Assembly (NCBI GenBank): GCA_021292105.1
Contig: CM037874.1
Span: 56,367,539-56,431,538, forward strand
DNA from: Anadara kagoshimensis
Taxonomy: Eukaryota > Mollusca > Bivalvia > Arcoida > Arcidae
Direction: 5' to 3'
DNA length: 64,000 nucleotides
Shown here one piece after another: positions 20,555 through 55,858 of the stretch (position 1 is the first letter of the stretch; the number at the start of each line of letters is the position of its first letter). Made by a program: the position numbers and the translations under genes. The notes beneath the pieces were generated by a model. It did no database searches and was not told the DNA's origin. It saw nothing but the letters and a program-made list of their open reading frames with translations.

Positions 20555-21312
20555 CAGTACAGACCTGTCTAAAGTTTAACACATGGCTAATGAATCGGCA
20601 GCTCATCTCGGCCCGTCGTTAGCGGTATCTCTAGATCTACATCTTATTAGCAGCCGCTATCTATATCTTGGTAGTTTTACTGCCACTAGGTGCCGCTATC
20701 TATATCTTGGTAGTTTTACTGCCACTAGGTGCCGCTATCTATATCTTGGTAGTTTTACTGCCACTAGGTGCCGCTATCTATATCTTGGTAGTTTTTCTGC
20801 CACTAGGTGCCGCTATCTATATCTTGGTAGTTTTTCTGCCACTAGGTGCCGCTATCTATATCTTGGTAGTTTTTCTGCCACTAGGTGCCGCTATCTATAT
20901 CTTGGTAGTTTTTCTGCCATTAGGTGCCGCTATCTATATCTTGGTAGTTTTTCTGCCACTAGGTGCCGCTATCTATATCTTGGTAGTTTTTCTGCCACTA
21001 GGTGCCGCTATCTATATCTTGGTAGTTTTTCTGTCACTAGGTGCCGCTATCTATATCTTGGTAGTTTTTCTGCCACTAGGTGCCGCTATCTATATCTTGG
21101 TAGTTTTTCTGCCATTAGGTGCCGCTATCTATATCTTGGTAGTTTTTCTGCCACTAGGTGCCGCTATCTATATCTTGGTAGTTTTTCAGCCACTAGGTGC
21201 CGCTATCTATATCTTGGTAGTTTTTCTGCCACTAGATATCCATATCTCGGCCACTTGTTATCCGAGCTTTGACTCGTTATTTCAGTGTTAAACTTTGGAC
21301 AGGTCTGTACTG
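20555..21312. mobile_element. TIR-MITE expanded by a 39-bp minisatellite
   Basis: Flanked by TA on each side, the ends are CAGTACAGACCTGTCTAAAG and its inverse CTTTGGACAGGTCTGTACTG. The core is about fifteen head-to-tail copies of a 39-bp unit containing CTATCTATATCTTGGTAG and CTGCCACTAGGTGCCG, from roughly 20657 to 21235, with few differences between units. Because 39 is divisible by three, frames of 229 and 207 residues stay open; they are not genes. Other family members are only about 200 bp long. Confidence 0.85.
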
Positions 21313-28015: not shown

Positions 28016-29107
28016 TTAGGCATTTTGTTTGGAAGGAGTCGATCTTCTTTTCCTCTGTCTTGGTGAGCTTCCATGTCTCGCATCCATATAGTAATACGGA
28101 GAGAACAAGGCTTTTGAAAAGAGAGACTTTACTTTTCTGCTAATGTTTGTAGCCTTCCAAATACTGTCTAGCCTTCGAAAGGATGTACCAGCCATCGCTA
28201 TCCTCTTCTTGATGTCGGCTGTGCCTCCGCCATCCTTGGTGACATTGGCTCCCAAATAGGTGAAGTTATCAACTTCTTCTACTTCACTATTTCCAACATG
28301 CAGGCTGGTGTCACTCTTGCTGTTAACCTTCAACACTTTACATTTCTTGGCATTCAGCTTCAGACCAACTTTAGCTGAGTTATCTTCAAGCTTTGTTGTT
28401 TTGCACTGTAGATGGCACATTGTGGATGAGAGCAGAGCAATGTCGTCCGCAAAGTCGAGGTCTTCTAGTATGGTGCTGAAGTGCCATCGAATTCCGGTGC
28501 GTTCTTCCTTTGTTGTCTGCTGCATCACCCAGTCTATAACTAGAAGGAATAGGAATCCTGACATGCAGCAGCCTTGTTTAACGCCAGTAAGAACGGGAAA
28601 AGGGGCTGTTGTGTCGTTTTCTTCTATTACTGAACACTGAAAGTCTTCGTAAAGTGCTTTTACCATTTGGATCAATTTCTCTGGTATGCCGTATTTTTTC
28701 ATAATGATCCAAAGACTGTCTCTGTGTACTGAGTCGAATGCCTTCTCGAAATCGACGAAATGGATATACATAGTAGCATTCCATTCGTTGGCTTGCTCCA
28801 AGATGTTCCTAAGAATGAATATTTGGTCAACAGTCCCTCTGCCTCTTCGGAAGCCTGCCTGTTCTTTCCTTAATATGCAGTCCACGCCCGTTTGTATTCG
28901 GTTTATGATGATGCGGCTGAGGACTTTACTGGCTAAAGGTAACAGTGTAACTCCTCTCCAATTGTTGCACTCTTGTAGGTTGCCTTTTTTGGGAATTTTA
29001 CAGATCAGTCCCTTGGTCCACTCCTTTGGTACTTTCTCCTCTCTCCATATTTGATCGAAGATAAGTTTGAGTTCTTGGCTGGACTGGACTATGTCAGATT
29101 TCAACAT
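28016..29107 (-). pseudogene. LINE reverse transcriptase domain
   Basis: 363-residue frame. Fingers and palm motifs are in order: RGVTLLPLASKVLSRI (51-66), QAGFRRGRGTVDQIF (83-97), motif A FVDFEKAFD (117-125), motif B GVKQGCCMSG (175-184), motif C LDFADD (217-222) and the thumb YLGANVTKDGG. The two catalytic aspartates of FADD are kept. The last 30 residues are out of frame; the true continuation (TEEKKIDSFQTKCLRR type) is in another frame. The frame is open upstream of 29107, so that Met is not the real start. It would copy RNA into DNA at the nicked target if intact. Confidence 0.88.
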
Positions 29108-29261
29108 TTCGGCAGTGATCTGATCTGCTCCAGGGCTTTTCCATTCTTGAGTGTCTTCAATGCATTTCTTACTTCTTGTAAGGAGGGTGTATCAACTGAG
29201 ATATTTAGTTCAACTCTCTCTTCCTGCTCATCTTGTGGTGTTGATTCCGGAGTCTCCCTGT

Positions 29262-29987
29262 TTAGGACCTCTTCAAAGTGTTCCTTCCACCTGGCAAGTC
29301 TTCCTTCTTGCTTTTTAACAGTTCTCCGTCTTTACTTTTTACTGCTGCTGTTTGTTTGCTTCCTTTTCCTGTTAGCTGCTTTACTATGTTATATAGTTCC
29401 TTTTGTCTCCCATTTTCAGCTGCTTTCTGTGCTATTTCAGCTTTCTCCGCCACCCATCTTCTCCTATCCTCCCTCACATTCTTCTTGACTTCTTTATCTT
29501 TCTCTCTATAAGCCTCCTTTAGTTTCGTCTTTAGCCTTTCAGATCTTGCGCCCTCCATCTTTGTTTTAATTTCCTTTCTTCCATCTATAAGTCTCCATGT
29601 GTCTTCACTTATCCAGGGTTTGCTCTTTCCCTTCCTGTAGCCTATGATTTCCTCTGCGGAGTTTACATATGCCATCTTTTGCTGTTCCCAGGTGTTTTCA
29701 ATATCCTCATACTCTTTTCTTTGGATTTCTCTCAGCTTCTTTCTGACACAGTCATTAAACTTTGTTCTTATTTCTGTATTTTGGAGGCGGTCGGTGTCCA
29801 ATCTTGGTCTTATCTTGCTGCTGTTCTTGTATGTGCTAAGATGTAGACGGATCTTAGTCTTCACCAAGTAGTGGTCGCTGTTGGCATCTGCTCCCCTCAT
29901 TGATCTGGTGTCTAAGACGGAGGATCTCCATTGTCCATTAATAAGGAGATGGTCAATCTGGTTTTTAACCCTTCCATTGGCTTCCAA
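29262..29987 (-). pseudogene. LINE fragment: endonuclease C-terminus and linker
   Basis: 241-residue frame. Residues 9-42 are the end of an APE-type endonuclease, with NQIDHLLING and the catalytic-loop motif SDHYLV at 37-42. A long basic, lysine/glutamate-rich linker follows. The start methionine is not native: the upstream part of the endonuclease is missing through 5' truncation. The frame is lost near 29305, after which the linker continues in the frame of the RT segment (ARWKEHFEEVLNR, then KAPGADQITAEM). Confidence 0.8.
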
Positions 29988-30345
29988 TGGAAGCTAACAA
30001 AGAACAGTCGAAATTCGGCTACGGAATGGCCGAGAAATGAATCATGGTCTAGTGGTCGAAAAGCTGTCGAGATATGGATAGCAGTTACCGAATATCTCGA
30101 TCAGCTGCCGAGAGATGGATAGCAGCTACTGAAATTTTCGATCAACTGCCGAGATATGGATAGAAGCCTCAACTGTCATTGGATGGATAGCCGCTACCGA
30201 AAATCTCGATCAACTGTCAAGAGATGGATAGCCGCTACCGAAAATCTATCGAAATCTAAAGTGACCGAGGGACCTAGACGAGCTGCACTAATTTGACTCT
30301 TTTTCGTTATAGCGCTAGTGTTAAACCTTTGACAGGTCTGTACGG

Positions 30346-33344: not shown

Positions 33345-33796
33345 ACTAACAAACATACTAATCCATGTCCGAATCACAATCCAGAAGCAAAGTAAAAGCT
33401 CTGGAACTGACAATTTAGGTTATACACGTGAACTTCCATCAGGAAAGTGAGGCCGGGTGATCCGGAAGGGTAAGCACCTCCGGTTTAGCTTCCTACACCC
33501 GTCACGTGTGTAATCAAAGTTGTGTGAAAGGAACATGAAACTATGAGACGTCAAATATATCCAGGTCAATCTTGGACACAGAGACATCAAACTTATCAAC
33601 AATACTGTGATGACGGCCATAAAACTTTTTGAGGGCCTTGATAAGCCTTGATAAGCCTAGGCTTACAATATTCCTGAATCAACAATTTATTTGCAAGCAG
33701 CCTACTTCGTTTTACAAAGTCCCCGTATTGGGAACAAGCTCTACCATAGCGTATCAATTTTGGAACAAATACACCATAAGCAGGAGAAGCAGGTAT
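33345..33796 (-). mobile_element. Penelope-like element, 3' part, interrupted by a DNA transposon
   Basis: Collinear with 51513-51955, from AACAAACATACTAATCCATG to AGCAGGAGAAGCAGGTAT. Open frames here include SRLLANKLLIQEYCKPRLI, the C-terminal region of the PLE protein. The copy continues at 41031 without loss, with TAT on both sides of the inserted element. Confidence 0.85.
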
Positions 33797-34240
33797 CACT
33801 AGAAGGGGTTTTACCGGAATAATTGCGAAATTCCGGAATAGTTAGACACTTTCCGTAATGTTTGGAAAAATCCGGAATCTTAAGACGAAAATCCGGAATA
33901 ATAAGTCAAAATCCGAAATATTTGGGCAAAATCCGGAATAATAAGACAAAATCCGTAATTATCGGTCAAAATCCGGAATAATTGGGCTATATTTTTTACG
34001 GTAAATTTTCCGGAATCTAAAGATTCCGGATTTTGTCTGATTATTCCGGATTTTGTCTAATTATTTCGGATTTTGCCTAATTATTTCGGATTTTGACTTA
34101 TTATTCCGGAAAATGTCCAATTATTACGGTAAAGTATTTTAAAAAATTTAAATTTTCAATTCGCGCCATTTTGTCTTATTTCGCCGACGTGCAAATAGTC
34201 ACACTTTCAATGAACATGTGTAAGGGGAAAAAATACCTTA
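33797..34240 (+). repeat. CACTA left terminal inverted repeat with 20-bp subterminal array
   Basis: About 440 bases matching the right end. TCCGGAAT-type cores recur in exact 20-bp register at 33811, 33831, 33851, 33871, 33891, 33911, 33931, 33951 and 33971. After a switch point near 33990-34020 the inverted core ATTCCGGA follows at 34021, 34041, 34061, 34081, 34101 and 34121. The linkers are mostly AATAAGACAAAA. In plant CACTA elements such subterminal motifs bind a TnpA-type protein that brings the ends together. Confidence 0.85.
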
Positions 34241-35576
34241 CAAATACTTGTAATAAATGTTCCGCCCTCGATCAGCCGCCATTTTTAATTTGCCTGTATG
34301 GTGTTCACCGTGCCGATGTATTTATTTCATCAATTTTTCTAAACTACGGTAAATAAAATATCAGAAATTTATTTATAAATTAATATGTCCTTTGTAAATA
34401 GGAAGAATTTAAATGTTTATTATACTTCCACGAACAAAAAATACAGTAGACTTATATCGAGTGTAGATGATATCAAAATAATGTACATTGAATGGGAAAA
34501 ACTGTAATGGTTTATTTTATCCATATCGAATATTTCGTAGGATAATATTTTCTTTGATCCATGGCTAATATTTTACAGGTAAATATTGTTCATATACAAT
34601 ATTTTAAGGATAAGCCATGACATTTATTTCGCCGGATAGATTTTGCCATGAAAGTATATCCTCGCGGACACATTTTCACCCAGATAAAATTATCGATTAC
34701 GTAACCACTTGGCTGTGATGACTGTATGAACCTTGAACGCTTGATTTACACTATCCCGCGGATACTCCAAACCCATATTTTCTGACTTGCTATGGTAGAT
34801 ATATATGCTGTATAATTAAATATAGTTATTATTTTACCATGTTTCACAGTTCAATTGTTATGCAATGTTTGTTCACGTGTCCTCTTATATAATTAGTTAA
34901 GATACATAATTATGTAACTACATGTATATCACATATAATGGGGATAACAATAAATGGTTATGATGACAGTAAAATACAGGTAAATTATAGGTAAAATTAC
35001 AGGTAAAACACCCTTGAATAGGCCCCTTAATCCCCATCTCTCATGAGGTTAGGCATTTGGGGACATGTGATTAATTATACTAATTACTTTTTTAAATTAT
35101 CACAGATCATGCAGCAGGCGTGTTCATCGTTAAATTTAGTTTCTTGCTTTCCAGAACGGATGCTTCGTCGGTTAGATCACAATTACTGGCACTAGTGGTT
35201 GACATTACATAACCATCTACTACTTTCCCGGTAAAAACGATAAATTACACATGTTGTTGCTAATATATAAACAAGGATTGCGCGTTGTCAAAAGATGAAA
35301 ATATGGTAACATATAACACTGTACACATCGTAGATGGGATCAACCTTGCTTTGAACGCCACTGTATTAAATATCGTGGATGGAACCGATATGATAATTGT
35401 TTTTTTTTCACACGAAAATCCAAAAGAGCGACCGGTCATAAATTAATGATTGTAAAGTAACGCTCCGACTGATGATTAAATGTGTTATGATCATGGCCCT
35501 CTTCTACGATTATAAAACCTTCCAGTATTGACAAATTTTATAAACGTTCGTTTGTGGAAAAAAAATTTCGATTGAC

Positions 35577-35629
<53 letters not shown>

Positions 35630-36018
35630 ATACTAAAATCAGGTCAGGAAATACATTTTTATTAGATCCAAGGATCTTCACATGAAGACGATAGTGCAGA
35701 AAGATTTACTAGTTTTACTTGATGAAATGGTGGTTTATTTATTTATTAATTTATTTAAATACAAATTTATTAACCGCGAAGTCATAAAATAAGATATATT
35801 AAATCATGACAGTTTAAAACTGATGTGTGTAATTTAAAGATGCTGTAGTCTTCTCTCCATCACTAACCCCCTCTCCCTCTATAATATTTATTTATTTATT
35901 TACTTGAATTCAAAGATACGGTAGTCTTCTCTCCGTCAATAACCCCCTCTCTATTTATTTATTTATTTGAATACACACGGGTATTTAATGGTAAAAGTTG
36001 TCATATCATGCATATTAC
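34241..36018. other. CACTA interior, left, no gene
   Basis: AT-rich with no ORF above 60 residues beyond the TIR. Contains a (TC)n run at 35580-35626, and two similar blocks near 35845 and 35915 (TAGTCTTCTCTCCNTCA, AACCCCCTCTC) that look like a local duplication. Confidence 0.5.
35580..35626. repeat. (TC)n microsatellite
   Basis: About 23 TC units. Confidence 0.95.
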
Positions 36019-36209
36019 CAGGTCTGGGATCAGCCCGAAACGGGGGATCTCCCGATCGGGGGACATTCAAAGGGAGGTAATTCTCCCGGATGTTAAACGC
36101 GAGTACACAGGAGAGTTCCACTGATCGCGAGTAATACTACCTTATGTAAACTTCCGGTAGATTATGCATATAAACTAGTGGTTGTCAATAAAGCTTGCTA
36201 CAAACAAAA

Positions 36210-36308
36210 ATGGCAGACGTATCGGCAGTGTTTTCCGATGATGGTATGGTCGATGCTATAATCGACGAATTATTAAATGAAGATAATGGACAAGTTTTTT
36301 TTAAATAA
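36210..36308 (+). pseudogene. Possible first exon of a lost transposase gene
   Basis: A 32-residue frame MADVSAVFSDDG ... IIDELLNEDNGQ with an AACAAAAATGG start context, about 190 bases inside the left TIR. TATAAAC lies about 40 bases upstream. Acidic start peptides like this occur on transposase first exons. A GT at 36294-36295, after the NGQ codons, could be a splice donor. No downstream exon is recognizable, so the coding part was probably deleted. Function is not assignable. Confidence 0.35.
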
Positions 36309-36825
36309 ACGCAAATTGATTTGTAATTTTAATTCAATTTAAATCATTTTAATACACTATTTTCTCTTGTTTTTCGATAGTTTAATTGGTAATTTTAATA
36401 CTTTATTTTCTTTTTAATTAGCAATTTTAACTCAATTTAAAACATTTTAATACATTATTTTATCTTGTTTTTCGATAGTTTTTGTAATTTTAAGACAATA
36501 TGTTCTCTTGTTTTCTGATGATTTAGTTGAACACAAATTTATTAGTAATTTTAACTCTGTTGTTTTTTATCCGAATTATCTGGCTTTATTTTACAGATTT
36601 TAACTTTTAACCCCCCCCCCCCATAATTAAACTTAAAAACCAATTCTTGTGGTTGCAAATGAACTGTTACAAACGTTTTTGTGCCTTTTTTAAATTCATA
36701 TAAAATCGGTTATGCCAATTGATTTTTTTATTCAATACACTAATGTGAATAGAGTAACACAATCAGAAGCCCTCGGCCAACCGCTAAAAATTAAAACAAT
36801 AGGTTCCTATTGTGTAACAATTACA

Positions 36826-36830
36826 TAATA

Positions 36831-36878
<48 letters not shown>

Positions 36879-36895
36879 TAATAATAATAATAAAA
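36826..36895. repeat. (AAT)n microsatellite
   Basis: About twenty AAT units with minor interruptions. Confidence 0.95.
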
Positions 36896-38087
36896 ATATT
36901 AATAAATTTTATTATAGTCTCATTATGATATATACAACATATAGAACATTATAAGCACACATAAAATATATAAATATGCCACTCTTAAAAGAGTTATAAG
37001 AGACTGTAATTATAGAAACTTTAAAACAAAAAACCTTATTAAAAGCATGTCATATACATGTAATTACAGGTGTGATGCCATGGGTTTAGCTTGGAGTGTC
37101 TCTGTTGTGTTTCCTAGGTCTACTTTCGTTGATGGCTTCTATGCGAAAGTTTTTTTTGACAACTGGCCAGCTGTTAAAACAACTACTCATTTCGGAGTCA
37201 TTATAAAGCATTTTGATGCGATAATTAAACCTGATTAACTTCCACTATTCTGTTGTTTCGTTATTGTTTGTGCTTACTGCAATTCTTTCAGTTCTTGATT
37301 TTTTAGATGGGCTAGCCATATTTTGTACATCATTCTCCAAATTTAAACATGTTTAAAAGTTCGTCCTATCATTTTGTAATATTTACGATAATTAACTTTG
37401 ATTGTACCTCCCTTTACACATCTGTACAAGGTAAAACAACAATCCTTTCAGTAATTCTGTACCCGTAACTACGGTTTAATTTTATCTGTAGTTTTTTAAC
37501 CGGAAGTACGTTTTTGAGAGTCTATAACTTTCGTTCCGCACGATAAATTTTTTTTCCGCACGACAGATCGTTAGAAAAATATGTTTACTATTACTCCACA
37601 AAATTTCAAGCCCCCGAACCTAGAAATGAAACCCCGCGGCCGTTTTTAAGAAAGGTATATCATTTTAGGTCGATTTTCAGCCCGTTTCTATGCAAACAAA
37701 TGTAATGCGCATGCGCGATGTTATAGTCACAGAAACGCTTAGACGCTTTATCCCCCGAACGGGCGATTTCAATTTATCCCCCGTTTCGGGCTGATCCCAG
37801 ACCTGATTACTACTATTGGGAACAGAGATTGGGAAGAAGATTACCTCGGTAAGTTTCCATTCAAATAAATCTAGGTAATTAATGAGATTAACACCATACC
37901 GGTAAATTTGTCACGTGGACTATACCATTCGTCTGCCACGGTTAAAGGGTTTTGAATTTGCTTCCGTTATCAATAGTTACGTAAGTTGTTGGTGAAGTAT
38001 GCCGATGGTAATTAATTAGTAACCGTGATATGTTTATTATACTTAATTTACACCTTCCTAATTTTAACGACTAGTAGTCAAACTGTC

Positions 38088-38138
38088 ACTATTGAAATAA
38101 TTAATTGTTTGAATCCCGGACCTGTGTTTGATTGATCA

Positions 38139-38141
<3 letters not shown>
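38088..38141. repeat. Short dispersed repeat GAATCCCGGACCTGTG
   Basis: TTTGAATCCCGGACCTGTG followed by TTGATTGATCATTAA occurs here and again at 38808-38846, just before a SINE. The GAATCCCGG is B-box like; probably two SINE scraps. Confidence 0.45.
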
Positions 38142-38226
<85 letters not shown>

Positions 38227-38230
38227 ATAT
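38138..38230. repeat. (AAAT)n microsatellite
   Basis: About 22 AAAT units. Confidence 0.95.
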
Positions 38231-38847
38231 TTGTTTGTTGTCTGAAAATATTATAATGAAAGAATTTTCAATTTAAACATATCAGGGGCGGATCCAGAGT
38301 CTTGTTGAAAGGGGGGGGCACAAGTTCGCACCGAAAACGCGAAGTCCTAGGAAGGTCTGGGGGCATGTTTCCCCTTAAAAATTTACTTTTCATTACATAT
38401 GATGCGATTTCCTGCATCTAGAACCCTGCCGTAACTCCTTCTTACCTTACATTCAAGGTGGATGTAAGCGAGTTAAAGAACTAATCAGCCTTTTTCAAAA
38501 AATTAACATTGACGGCAGACTGACAGGAGTCTATAGTGTCAATGAGTCAGAAACTGTACTGTCGAAATTCGTCGCTGTCGGTAACTTGCCGTGTCAGTCT
38601 CTTTATCTGTCGAGGTGTAGTCGTGCAACGCATTTCCAGAAGAAAGGTTGTTGGCCCCTTGGAAATGGTAGATCGATAAGTCGATCCTTCTGAGGGATAC
38701 CAGTGTTTTGATTTAAATTGGTCGATAATGGATGGACGTGATCTGGTGGTCAGGGTGATTCAGTCGGGTTGATAAACTTCACGCGGCTCATGAGTGGAAA
38801 AATATTTGTTTGAATCCCGGACCTGTGGCTGATTGATCATTAATTAA

Positions 38848-39155
38848 GGGGGTTTAACGTCCAAGTCAGGAATATTTCACTTTTATCGAGACGTCACCAG
38901 CTACAGGTGTAGGTGCAGAATAATTTACCTGTGCTTTGCGCTGGTGGCATTATGAGTAAGGATTTTTCACCGTGCCATACCTGCGGTGACAAGGGCCTCG
39001 GTTTTTAAGGTTTGTCCGAAAGACCCGCTTTCATTTCTAATGCCGAGCGAACAGTCACTACCATTTTTCAAGTCTTGGGTCAGACCGAGGGACAAAACCT
39101 GCGACCTCAAATTTACAGAGCGAGCACTCTACCAATTATGCTGGCTGCTACCGAA
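38848..39155 (-). mobile_element. tRNA-derived SINE, TTAACGTCCCAGTCA family
   Basis: GGTTTAACGTCCAAGTCAGG, TTCACTTTTATCGAGACGTC, ACAGTCACTACC and, on the minus strand, the tRNA head AATTGGTAGAGTGCTCGCTC. Nested inside the hAT-like element. Confidence 0.7.
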
Positions 39156-39283
39156 GTGGTAGGTCTCCTACCTCTCCTATACCTTCAAGTGAATGTTATT
39201 ATATTATTAGTTTTAAAATGAATAATTAGTCAGTTTCAGCATTGTGTATTAAAGGTGTGTCATGCGGATACCATACTACTTAT

Positions 39284-39400
39284 ATACTATTTTTTGAATT
39301 TGATATAAAAAATACATTCAAAAAATGTCATTCCATGACATGGACAATACCGTTTTTTGAATGTAGTTTTTGATTAAATTTAAAAAAATGGTATATCACA
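39284..39400. mobile_element. Palindromic MITE, GTCATATACCATT family, compound copy
   Basis: TATACTATTTTTTGAATTTG, AATACATTCAAAAAATGTCA, and then a second hairpin ACCGTTTTTTGAATGTAGTT to AAAAAAATGGTATATCAC. Confidence 0.6.
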
Positions 39401-39612
39401 GGTGCGACACACAAAAATTCCGTCATCAGAAAATAGCACTGATCATTTTAGATGGATTAGTTTCATATAACCGATAAACAGACGAATAGACTGAATTTTG
39501 TCATTTGAACCAATTTAATTTTTTAATGCATAAAATGTGGGGCTTTTATTAGCGCTATAAAAGTATACAAAAATGATAATCGTGTGCTAAAAAATGTAAT
39601 ATTCTGAATTAG

Positions 39613-39641
<29 letters not shown>
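39613..39641. repeat. (TC)n microsatellite
   Basis: About 14 CT units. Confidence 0.95.
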
Positions 39642-39643
<2 letters not shown>

Positions 39644-40064
39644 GGTCATGTCCTTTGGTTTGAACAGTCAAATTAAATAATTCACGTATGATTGATGAAA
39701 TCACATGCTTTATGGAATCTTTCCTCGAAGAAGAATTACGCTTGGAGTATTGATAACGATCATGTTTAAAATTCAGTCTTTTTGACAAGACCGAAGTCTC
39801 TTAATTAGTATTCCTAATTAACGTCATCTACTGATTTCTTTCATGCCTCAGCGATCAGGTAAATAACATTATCACTTAAGACTGGTCAGTACTACCTGAA
39901 TTCTTTCATGCCTCAGCGAACTGGCACATTACATCATCACCTGATAGCAATTTACTACCTGTACGCAGATAATTAACCAGTACCATTAATTAACTGGTCC
40001 ACTGGTTGAGTGACAATTTGCGGTGTGAGAGACAATCCCCCAACCCCCGCTGGATCCGCCACTG

Positions 40065-40587
40065 CATATTTGTTGAAATTAACTTTTTAAGTGATGCATG
40101 TGGATATAAATGGTAGGCATATGAATGAATGAAGCAGTTTATTTTATTTTATCCACATACCTGTATCAGTTTATCATAGGTATAATGTCATATTTTTACG
40201 TAAAAACCTGTTTTTTTTAATAAAAGTTAAATAGCCCCAAAATCTTATTAAATAATTTTTTTATATTACCCTCTTTATCTATATTGAAAATTTAAAAATT
40301 TCAAACGTAAAAAGTCCCAAAATCTCTAAAATTACTCAAAAACATCAAACTTATACTTTTTCATGATATGAGGAATAAATTATTGTTTTTAATATTTCAA
40401 AACTTTATTAAGAAATTAAAATTAATCCTTCATAAATCTTTGTTAGCTTCAGTCAGAGACATATATATGTCTCTGCTTCAGCATGGTATCAACACGATAC
40501 ATCCGCGCATGCGCACACGCGTTCGTACGGAAAGCCTCTGTATGAAAGGATGTCGACTGCTGTCGAGCTTAGTGATAGATAGTTTTA
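40065..40587. other. CACTA interior, right, no gene
   Basis: AT-rich. The 83-residue frame at 40368-40619 runs into the TIR and has no recognizable domain. Confidence 0.5.
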
Positions 40588-41030
40588 GGTATTTTTTTCC
40601 CCTTACACAGTTTTCTTGAAAGTGCGGCTATTTGCACGTTGGTGAAAAACGACAAAATGGCGCGAATTGAAAATTTAAATTTTTTAAAATACTTTACCGT
40701 AATAATTGGACATTTTCCGGAATAATAAGTCAAAATCCGAAATAATTAGGCAAAATCCGAAATAATTAGACAAAATCCGGAATAATCAGACAAAATCCGG
40801 AATCTTTAGATTCCGGAAAATTTACCGTAAAAAATATAGCCTTATTATTCCGGATTTTGACCGATTATTCCGGATTTTGTCTGATTATTCCGGATTTTGC
40901 CTAATTATTTCGGATTTTGACTTATTATTCCGGATTTTCGTCTTAAGATTCCGGATATTTCCAAACATTACGGAAAGTGTCTAACTATTCCGGAATTTCG
41001 CAATTATTCCGGTAAAACCCCCTTCTAGTG
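40588..41030 (-). repeat. CACTA right terminal inverted repeat with 20-bp subterminal array
   Basis: Inverse copy of 33797-34240, including the GCGCGAATTG block at the inner edge, the inverted half-array (AATCCGAAATAATTAGNCAA units) and nine outer units of ATTATTCCGGATTTTGNCTG type. Scattered single-base differences show that the two arms have aged since insertion. Confidence 0.85.
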
Positions 41031-41206
41031 TATATTGCTGCATAGGAAAGGAAAGATGGCAATAGAAAGTTATCACGTTTGTCGTAAGTTTCAACTGTAC
41101 CTTTTGTGGGCGTCATAATTGGGGTATACATTAAGTAAGTCTAAATATGATGCAGAACTTGAGGAGGAATCAGTCGTATTTTTTATTTCAAGCTCACTAG
41201 TAAAAT
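41031..41206 (-). mobile_element. PLE continuation after the CACTA insertion
   Basis: TATATTGCTGCATAGGAAAG through AAGCTCACTAG is collinear with 51957-52122. The PLE copy is then truncated at its own 5' side near 41206, before the RT core. Confidence 0.8.
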
Positions 41207-51500: not shown

Positions 51501-51713
51501 TTGTGATTGGGTTAATCAAAAACAAACATACTAATCCATTTCCGAATCACAATCCAGAAGCGAAGTAAAAACTTTGGAACCGACAAGTTAGGTTAGACAC
51601 GTAAACTTCCTCCAGGGAGGTGAGGCCGGGTGCTCCAGAAGGGTAAGCACATCCTGTTTAGCTAGCTACACCCGCCACGTGTGTAATCAAAATTGTGTGA
51701 AAGGAACAAGGAA

Positions 51714-51899
51714 CTATGAGACGTCAAATATATCCAAGGCAATCCTGGACACAGAGACATCAAACTTATCAACAATACTGTGATGACGGCCATTAAACTT
51801 TTTGAGAGCCTTGATAAGCCTAGGCTTGGAATATTCCTGAATCGACAATTTATTTGCAAGAAGCCTACTTCGTTGTACAAGTCCCCGTAGTGGGAACAA
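51714..51899 (-). pseudogene. PLE protein C-terminal segment
   Basis: 61-residue frame containing VQRSRLLANKLSIQEYSKPR, LKKFNGRHH and VDKFDVSVSRIALDIFDVS then a stop. It is the conserved end of the same protein as the RT core at 51916-52512, placed in a different frame by small deletions. The alternative frame at 51662-51880 is a shadow. Confidence 0.7.
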
Positions 51900-51915
51900 G
51901 CTCTACCATAGCGTA

Positions 51916-52512
51916 TTAATTGGGAACTAAATACACCATAAGCAGGAGAAGCAGGTATATTGCTGTATAAAAAGGAAAGTTGACAATAGAAAAATTGAAG
52001 TCATCATGTTTGTCATAAAGTTTCAAATGTAGCCTTTCCTGTGCGTCATAATTAAGGTATAAGTCTAAATATGAAGCAAAACATGAGGAATCAGTCGTGT
52101 CGTTTATTTCAAGCTCACTAGGATAGATGATATTTACATAGTCTCCAAATTTAGGATTGTTAAGAGACAGAGCGTCATCTATATATCTGTATGTTAAGTT
52201 GAATGATTTGGCGACAGTTTTCTCTCCAGATTTAACAAGGTTCTGTATAAATTCTGCTTCATAAGAATAAGGAAACAAATCAGCAAGCAATGGTGCACAG
52301 TTTGTACCCATTGGTATACCGATTGTTTGCTGAAAAACTATATTACCAAACACAACAAATATGTTATCTATCAAAAACTCCAATATTTTGTTGATGGTCT
52401 CTTCAGTATAATTTTGTTTGGAATCCGTATGGTACTTGACAAAATAACCAGAATCCCTGTTCAGCACCAGATATTTGTATCTTGGCTTTCCGTTTTTGTA
52501 GAAGAAAGACAA
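51916..52512 (-). pseudogene. Penelope-like reverse transcriptase core
   Basis: 198-residue frame. It carries an RNA-dependent polymerase core with TIGIPMGTNCAPLLADLF (63-80), SYEAEFI, YRYIDDALSLNNPKF (108-122) with the YIDD catalytic pair at 110-113, and YLDLYLNYD. This arrangement matches RT proteins I associate with Penelope-like elements of bivalves and other invertebrates. The last 14 residues are out of frame, and the fingers domain upstream is lost. No GIY-YIG endonuclease is visible downstream. Clade assignment within RT elements is from memory of motif style and moderately sure. Confidence 0.75.
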
Positions 52513-52839
52513 GTGAATAATTTCTTTAAGACGTTAAATCAGCCAATAGGAACCAATCATATATTATTTACAAGGCAAACATGAAAACGTTGCTTTGAAT
52601 CATGAGTTAGATGAATTTTTAACACCATTGCATGTTTGAATTACGTTTTTAGAATTTAACTGTTTGGAATGGATTTTAAATAATATATCAAGGTATTAAA
52701 GTGTTTAACATTTAATGGTAAAAGTCAATGTCCTTTATGTATAATGCCTGTCCTTTTTTCCTCTCACGAATCTAATTTCCACATAGACTGAAAGTTGTAT
52801 GGTGAATAAAAGCTGAAAATGTCAGATAAATTAAGTTTT
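52513..52839. other. Intergenic, nothing supported
   Basis: AT-rich unassigned sequence upstream of the truncated PLE. Confidence 0.45.
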
Positions 52840-55307: not shown

Positions 55308-55858
55308 AATCAAAAACAAACATGCTAATCCATGTCCGAATCACAATCCAGAAGCAAAGTAAAAACTTTAGAACTGACAAGTTAGGTTAGACACGTGAAC
55401 TTCCACCAGAGAAGTGAGGCCGGAAGGGTAAGCACCTCCTGTTTAGCTAGCTACACCCGCCACGTGTGTAATCAAAGCTGTGTGAAAGGAACATGGAACT
55501 ATGGGACGTCAAATATATCCAGGACAATCCTGGACACAGAGACTTCAAACTTATCAACACTACTGTGATCATGGCCATAAAACTTTTTGAGGGCCTTGAT
55601 AAGCCTAGGCTTGCAATATCCTTGAGTCAACTATTTATTCGCAAGCAGCCTACTTCGTTGTACAAAGTCTCCGTAGTGGGAACAAGCTCTACCATAGCTC
55701 ATTAACTGGGAAACAAACACACCATAAGCAGGAGAAGTAGGTATATTGCTTCATAAAAAGGAAAGTTGACAATAGAAAAATTGGAGTCATCACGTTTGTC
55801 ATAAAGTTTCAAATGTAGCCTTTCGTGTGCGTCATAATTCAGGTATAAGTCTAAATGT
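55308..55858 (-). mobile_element. Penelope-like element, 3' half
   Basis: Collinear with 51513-52070 from AAACATGCTAATCCATGTCC to GTCATAATTCAGGTATAAGT. It retains codons for LDLYLNYDAHERLHLKLYDK and IVNFPFY but not the RT core, so it is truncated closer to its 3' end than the copy at 51513. Relative to that copy about ten bases (CGGGTGCTCC region) are missing near 55420. Confidence 0.8.

Follow-up and report, generated by a model that had tools for sequence, protein, structure and literature searches.

The window analysed here is a stretch of 64,000 nucleotides from the bivalve Anadara kagoshimensis (assembly GCA_021292105.1, contig CM037874.1, positions 56,367,539 to 56,431,538 of the forward strand), and it contains at 33797-41030 a DNA transposon which interrupts a putative Penelope-like element. 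Judged from its structure, the transposon is very probably a copy of a non-autonomous cut-and-paste family of the CACTA (EnSpm) type. The features of the locus are listed below, with positions counted from the first letter of the window.

33797..41030, no strand assigned: whole element, 7,234 bp, with CACTAG...CTAGTG ends (read directly, and from empty sites)
33794..33796, no strand assigned: target-site duplication TAT, left copy (read directly, and from the empty-site alignment)
41031..41033, no strand assigned: target-site duplication TAT, right copy (read directly, and from the empty-site alignment)
33797..34246, plus strand: left terminal inverted repeat with 20-bp-phased arrays of the TCCGNAAT motif, direct then inverted
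40580..41030, minus strand: right terminal inverted repeat
36019..37805, no strand assigned: nested insertion whose 30-bp inverted ends are perfect (CAGGTCTGGGATC...), ATTAC present twice
38283..40064, no strand assigned: hAT-like passenger, CAGGGGCGGATCC...GGATCCGCCACTG, CATAT present twice in the window copy
33348..33796, minus strand: left piece of the interrupted Penelope-like element, a decayed reverse transcriptase (RT) coding region
41034..41203, minus strand: right piece of the interrupted Penelope-like element (from alignment to the copy ending at 52121)
51521..52121, minus strand: related uninterrupted repeat, with the empty site TAT at 51956-51958
55315..55847, minus strand: second related uninterrupted repeat, with the empty site TAT at 55742-55744

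Structure of the element and its insertion site

On direct reading of the window CACTA starts at 33797 and TAGTG terminates at 41030, the element opening with CACTAGAAGGGG and closing with the reverse complement, CCCCTTCTAGTG. The inverted repeats (33805-34246 and 40580-41021) measure 442 nt and are 95% complementary; in four elements compared, the two repeats of one element are 95.0-96.6% identical to each other. The left repeat contains fifteen TCCGNAAT/ATTNCGGA motifs, mostly spaced by 20 bp and arranged first in direct and then in inverted order; in 2,000 mononucleotide shuffles the motifs averaged 0.05 occurrences and never exceeded 2. Arrays of the TCCGNAAT motif are present in both inverted repeats. 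A preliminary description, made from the letters of the window, had reported CACTA ends on both strands, TAT duplicated on either side and terminal repeats of about 440 bp with dense subterminal arrays, all of which is borne out.

The insertion site can be compared with empty sites in the same window. When the two flanks are joined with one TAT, they align across the junction to both uninterrupted repeats at 85-86% identity, with small gaps elsewhere. The boundaries of the element are exact, since the joined flanks align through the junction to two repeats which each carry a single TAT. The split repeat had been described as continuous at 51955 and 55745, and the empty-site TATs were indeed found within a few bases of these positions. 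The boundaries of the 7,234 bp had likewise been called exact; the ends are right to the base, and what had passed unnoticed is the nested insertion of 1,787 bp.

This insertion (36019-37805) is absent from L053, a long copy of the family elsewhere in the genome which keeps a single ATTAC, and it is unmatched in the long copies L051 and L052. It is a later insertion, private to the window copy among the three long copies compared. As the 7,234 bp include the nested 1,787 bp and its 5-bp duplication, the transposed unit is about 5.44 kb; the window element minus the insert and the extra 5 bp measures 5,442 bp, within the long size class described below. The hAT-like segment at 38283-40064 is found in L051, L052 and L053 as well, and must therefore be older than the spread of these copies. 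Duplications of 5 bp are known for hAT5 families (PMC12730594).

The RT-like fragment of the window gave no Pfam match and nothing credible among the solved structures of the PDB. A search of the source genome for relatives of the interrupted repeat returned 31,688 first-look candidates, of which 150 were scored. In one relative (L087) 883 amino acids could be read in a frame still open at the 5' limit of the stretch; this relative has a GIY-YIG domain at residues 19-108 (22.8 bits against a cut-off of 22.6; the N-terminal piece gave 25.5) and an RT domain (RVT_1) at residues 630-733 with 23.2 bits, below the cut-off of 29.6. Through this relative, with its GIY-YIG and RT domains, the identification of the interrupted repeat as a Penelope-like element, as first proposed, is supported. 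Rfam had no match at gathering scores and no ribozyme in the whole window, so that the identification draws no support from a hammerhead. Across the insertion site the joined flanks read ...FPFLCSNIPASPAYGVF..., the same as L087, and therefore the transposon landed in what would be the RT-coding part of a decayed Penelope-like copy. A GIY-YIG domain ahead of the RT, as in L087, is the Naiad layout. The name Naiad appears in a class table of PMC10941475; the likeness to such Penelope-like elements with an N-terminal GIY-YIG lies in the layout of L087, whereas the window copies are decayed. A stretch at 51916-52533 of the window is also a repeat of this hugely abundant Penelope-like element.

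Copies and size forms in the genome

The source genome comprises 1,115,223,567 bases in 36 contigs, the window lying on the one numbered C18. The exact end pattern of the element has 404 + 384 = 788 matches in it, and the reversed control 0 + 0. A DNA search with the left repeat gave 1,051 first-look candidates; the 40 that were scored all match the complete 450 bases of the left repeat at 97-100% identity. Thirty loci, picked by similarity to the window repeat, were fetched, L001 being the window itself, and CACTAGAAGGGG starts every one of the 29 other long-form ends. Copies are dispersed over many contigs. Such a genome search had been suggested in the preliminary description, which had made its proposal depend on CACTA standing at the boundary of other copies; the family is large, and CACTA is present at all 29 ends.

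Over the first 900 bp, identity among the long-form loci ranges from 95.6 to 100% with a median of 98.0%, a count that covers 29 of the 30 loci, L026 being left out, and that under-samples older copies as it is made on the best-scoring loci. Between the window copy and its best match the identity reaches 99.55%. The near-identity of the long-form copies suggests a recent spread, to which no calibrated date is attached, and the window element appears to be one copy of a large and fairly young family.

The family comes in two dominant size classes, of about 0.64 kb and about 5-6 kb. Among the first 100 listed ends, 35 adjacent pairs were formed (28 at 602-684 bp, 5 at 5.2-6.1 kb and 2 at more than 10 kb) and 30 ends stayed unpaired. 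A sample of 53 pairs selected by TAT/ATA flanks, described below, contains 36 pairs of less than 1.2 kb, 16 of 3.5-7.9 kb and one of 13.8 kb. Adjacent pairing may join ends of separate elements, and the largest sizes are uncertain on that account. Twenty short copies are 78-99.8% identical to one another. The strongest matches of two of them (L054 and L055) to the window inverted repeats are 71-82% identical, while the terminal 35-47 bp are exactly common to the short form and the right repeat of the window element in 19 of the 20 copies (13 bp in L073). The 0.64-kb form is a sister form and not a simple deletion of the long form. Since both forms have these terminal bases and the motif in common, one enzyme probably moves both.

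Two of the short copies (L065 and L066, contig C1, 37361510 and 37363438) lie 1.9 kb apart and have identical flanks, which suggests a local duplication after insertion; L021 and L022 on contig C18 look alike in the same way.

Target-site duplications and superfamily

The length of the target-site duplication was read at both ends of 24 elements, namely the window copy, three long copies and twenty short ones, the long and short ones being chosen by end pattern. CACTA stands at both ends of the 23 elements other than the window copy, as their selection by the exact end pattern entails. The duplication is 3 bp in 22 of the 24 and fits 4 bp in the remaining two; for mismatched flank pairs the rate of agreement over 3 bp is 0.069. 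Further 3-bp duplications, GTC and TAC, are found in two elements of L086, which brings the total to 24 of 26. L021/L022 and L065/L066, pairs whose members have the same flanks, probably each stem from the duplication of a single insertion, and the independent count within the set of 24 is accordingly 21 of 23. The triplets that are duplicated differ between elements, which means that the target is not a fixed word. A duplication of 3 bp across copies, on which the preliminary description had staked its reading, is accordingly found in 24 of 26 elements, and in its strict form, always 3 bp, the rule does not hold.

A wider test made use of the fact that, where the duplication is TAT, one CACTA end must be preceded by TAT and its partner by ATA. 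There are 90 ends preceded by KAT (TAT or GAT), all of them listed, the last 16 without their letters and counted as KAT by pattern, and 108 preceded by MTA (ATA or CTA), 100 of them listed. Within 30 kb, 53 adjacent pairs of a forward and a reverse end are found, and 51 of these join KAT with MTA, as a 3-bp rule predicts; the remaining two have TAT at both ends, an outcome that a 4-bp duplication of ATAT would have. Among the 51, the letters identify 43 as TAT/ATA; in the other 8, one side is ATA and the letters of the opposite side are not displayed. The 17 CTA ends and the four known GAT ends all lack a pair, as they should if TAG and ATC are what precedes their partners.

Cut-and-paste superfamilies differ in what they duplicate: TTAA in piggyBac, TWA in Harbinger, TA in Tc1 and 8 bp in hAT elements. 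In the 24 elements TTAA and 8-bp duplications were each found 0 times, the duplications being mostly 3 bp of varied sequence, and we regard it as very improbable that the family belongs to another superfamily (piggyBac, PIF/Harbinger, hAT or Tc1/mariner) and has CACTA-like ends by chance. Such ends do occur outside the CACTA superfamily, as the piggyBac family Kenshin has CACTAGA ends (PMC4298943).

CACTA elements are defined by CACTA ends, a 3-bp duplication and subterminal direct and inverted repeats of 10-20 bp units (PMC8978399). The family has CACTA termini, a 3-bp duplication in 24 of 26 elements and subterminal units of 10-20 bp. It is improbable that the family belongs to Chapaev or Chapaev3, sister lineages within the CMC group, and not to EnSpm/CACTA proper. 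Chapaev elements have CAC...GTG ends and duplications of 3 to 4 bp (PMC4079192), with which the two of 24 elements that fit 4 bp agree. Against this, Chapaev3 is reported in the same paper to duplicate TWA, and here TTA and TAA together account for no more than 5 of the 22 three-base duplications; the subterminal arrays of 10-20 bp units, moreover, are a trait described for CACTA elements.

Several observations weigh against the assignment to CACTA. It is a structural assignment throughout, as no transposase is linked to the family: it draws on the ends, the duplication and the subterminal arrays, and the ends by themselves do not prove a superfamily, as the example of Kenshin makes clear. In two of the 26 elements the duplication fits 4 bp, and 35 of the 90 KAT ends are without a listed partner, the wider test being a partial one that would miss many 4-bp cases. 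L059, one of the 4-bp cases, is among these unpaired ends; the others may have a mutated or an unlisted partner. Finally, no driver was found; of the Transposase_21 genes of the genome, discussed below, the nearest lies 52 kb from any of the 228 listed end positions to which they were compared, a part of the 788 ends (100 from one listing, 89 of 100 from a second and 39 from further searches, some being one end at slightly different coordinates).

Search for a transposase and possible mode of movement

A Pfam search on six frames of the window copy found no transposase domain, two weak matches lying well below the cut-offs. The long copies L051 and L052 have no frame of at least 100 aa. In L053 there are three such frames, measuring 147, 111 and 102 aa, none of which is convincing; two are of low complexity. 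L026/L088 is a 7.9-kb copy of the long form, noncoding where it was read (about 3.2 kb being unread), and the left 2.8 kb of the L088 copy contain no transposase, with one weak Pfam match below cut-off. The absence of a transposase and the non-autonomous nature proposed at the outset hold for the copies read (the window copy in six frames, L051, L052 and L053). As to the DDD/E transposase of the CMC type, no such domain is present in the window copy or in the 2.8 kb of L088, and Transposase_21 is found elsewhere in the genome.

There are 88 matches to Transposase_21 (PF02992) in the source genome, 36 of them with open frames of at least 800 aa, and these elements, which are of the TRC type, could be thought to drive the family. 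In keeping with this, two of the copies examined bear, downstream of the gene, arrays of a motif of their own. We consider it nevertheless rather unlikely. Twenty Transposase_21 loci with 1.5-kb flanks and seven loci of 8-10 kb (L074-L080) contain no CACTAGAAGG and no TCCGGAATAAT motif, the wide flanks having been examined for a minority of the 88 copies. Published animal TRC elements moreover have CCC ends and 2-bp duplications (PMC1636069), and the window family has neither. The nearest Transposase_21 is 92 kb from the 90 KAT ends and 120 kb from 90 of the 100 listed MTA ends (eight on C1, one on C2 and one on C3 were left out); the end positions compared are part of the 788.

A CCC-like right end was tentatively placed by eye in L077 and L078, with no left partner in the 2.9 kb searched. 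Both carry dense arrays containing CCATGG downstream of the Transposase_21 gene (L077, 6387-6740; L078, 6278-6566), the motif being unlike that of the CACTA-type family. In L076 (C12:14880700-14890600) a Transposase_21 gene with an 815-aa frame lies between the arms of a 2.67-kb inverted repeat which are 99.7% identical. A 43-bp repeat around the open reading frame of L075 is a simple repeat.

A variant-end pattern gave two further ends. The first (L084/L086), which is not a driver, belongs to a 332-bp element; next to it lies an element of 1,693 bp whose left part is like that of the short form, and six frames gave no Pfam match. The second (L085) marks a short form that measures about 0.36 kb. 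A scan of IMG/VR with the four-G version of the end had 0 matches.

The likeness of the family to the non-autonomous members of CACTA (EnSpm) extends to the termini, the 3-bp duplications and the subterminal direct and inverted arrays. It differs in its animal host, in having no transposase linked to it, in that the 442-nt inverted repeat itself holds the arrays, and in the noncoding 5-6 kb form that exists beside the 0.64-kb form. Elements such as SmTRC1, the animal TRC type with Transposase_21, are also animal DNA transposons filed in the CACTA superfamily (PMC1636069), but their ends begin with CCC and their duplications are of 2 bp, against CACTA and mostly 3 bp in the window family. CACTA-type elements are not new in such animals, since EnSpm is annotated in a clam, Mercenaria mercenaria, accounting for 0.13-0.15% of its assemblies (PMC8905726), and a bivalve survey curated two CMC transposons (PMC10294476). 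The likeness of these sequences to the family described here lies in their annotation. No description of the window family was recognised in the open-licence literature searched, and it may already be in Repbase.

Elsewhere in the window, a 318-aa open frame on the minus strand at 3815-4771 matches the rhodopsin family of G-protein-coupled receptors (7tm_1, E 1.4e-46). Neighbouring frames of 391 and 243 aa on the minus strand (28016-29993), one with an RVT_1 match (E 5.1e-36), are probably a long interspersed nuclear element. A minisatellite at 20653-21235 has a 39-bp unit in 14.9 copies with 98% matches and is open in two frames.

As to how the family might move, a transposase encoded elsewhere would bind the 20-bp-phased TCCGGAAT arrays near both ends and cut at CACTA/TAGTG, thereby excising the element, which would then insert at a site staggered by 3 bp and sometimes by 4 bp. 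The same transposase would probably serve the 5-6 kb and the 0.64-kb forms. We put forward, as a tentative idea and one that may well prove wrong, that a transposase lineage of the CMC group other than TRC mobilises CACTA-ended elements with 3-bp duplications through the TCCGGAAT arrays, that through it hundreds of noncoding copies have spread, in the long and the short form, and that its autonomous source is rare, diverged or gone.

For the specialist this would be a new family of a well-known kind, a good case for annotation and no surprise. It provides an animal family of CACTA type whose boundaries are exact, for which empty sites exist within the one window, and whose near-identical copies are numerous enough for recent movement to be tested. 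The question that it poses is which transposase moves it, given that the published animal TRC elements have other ends and other duplications.

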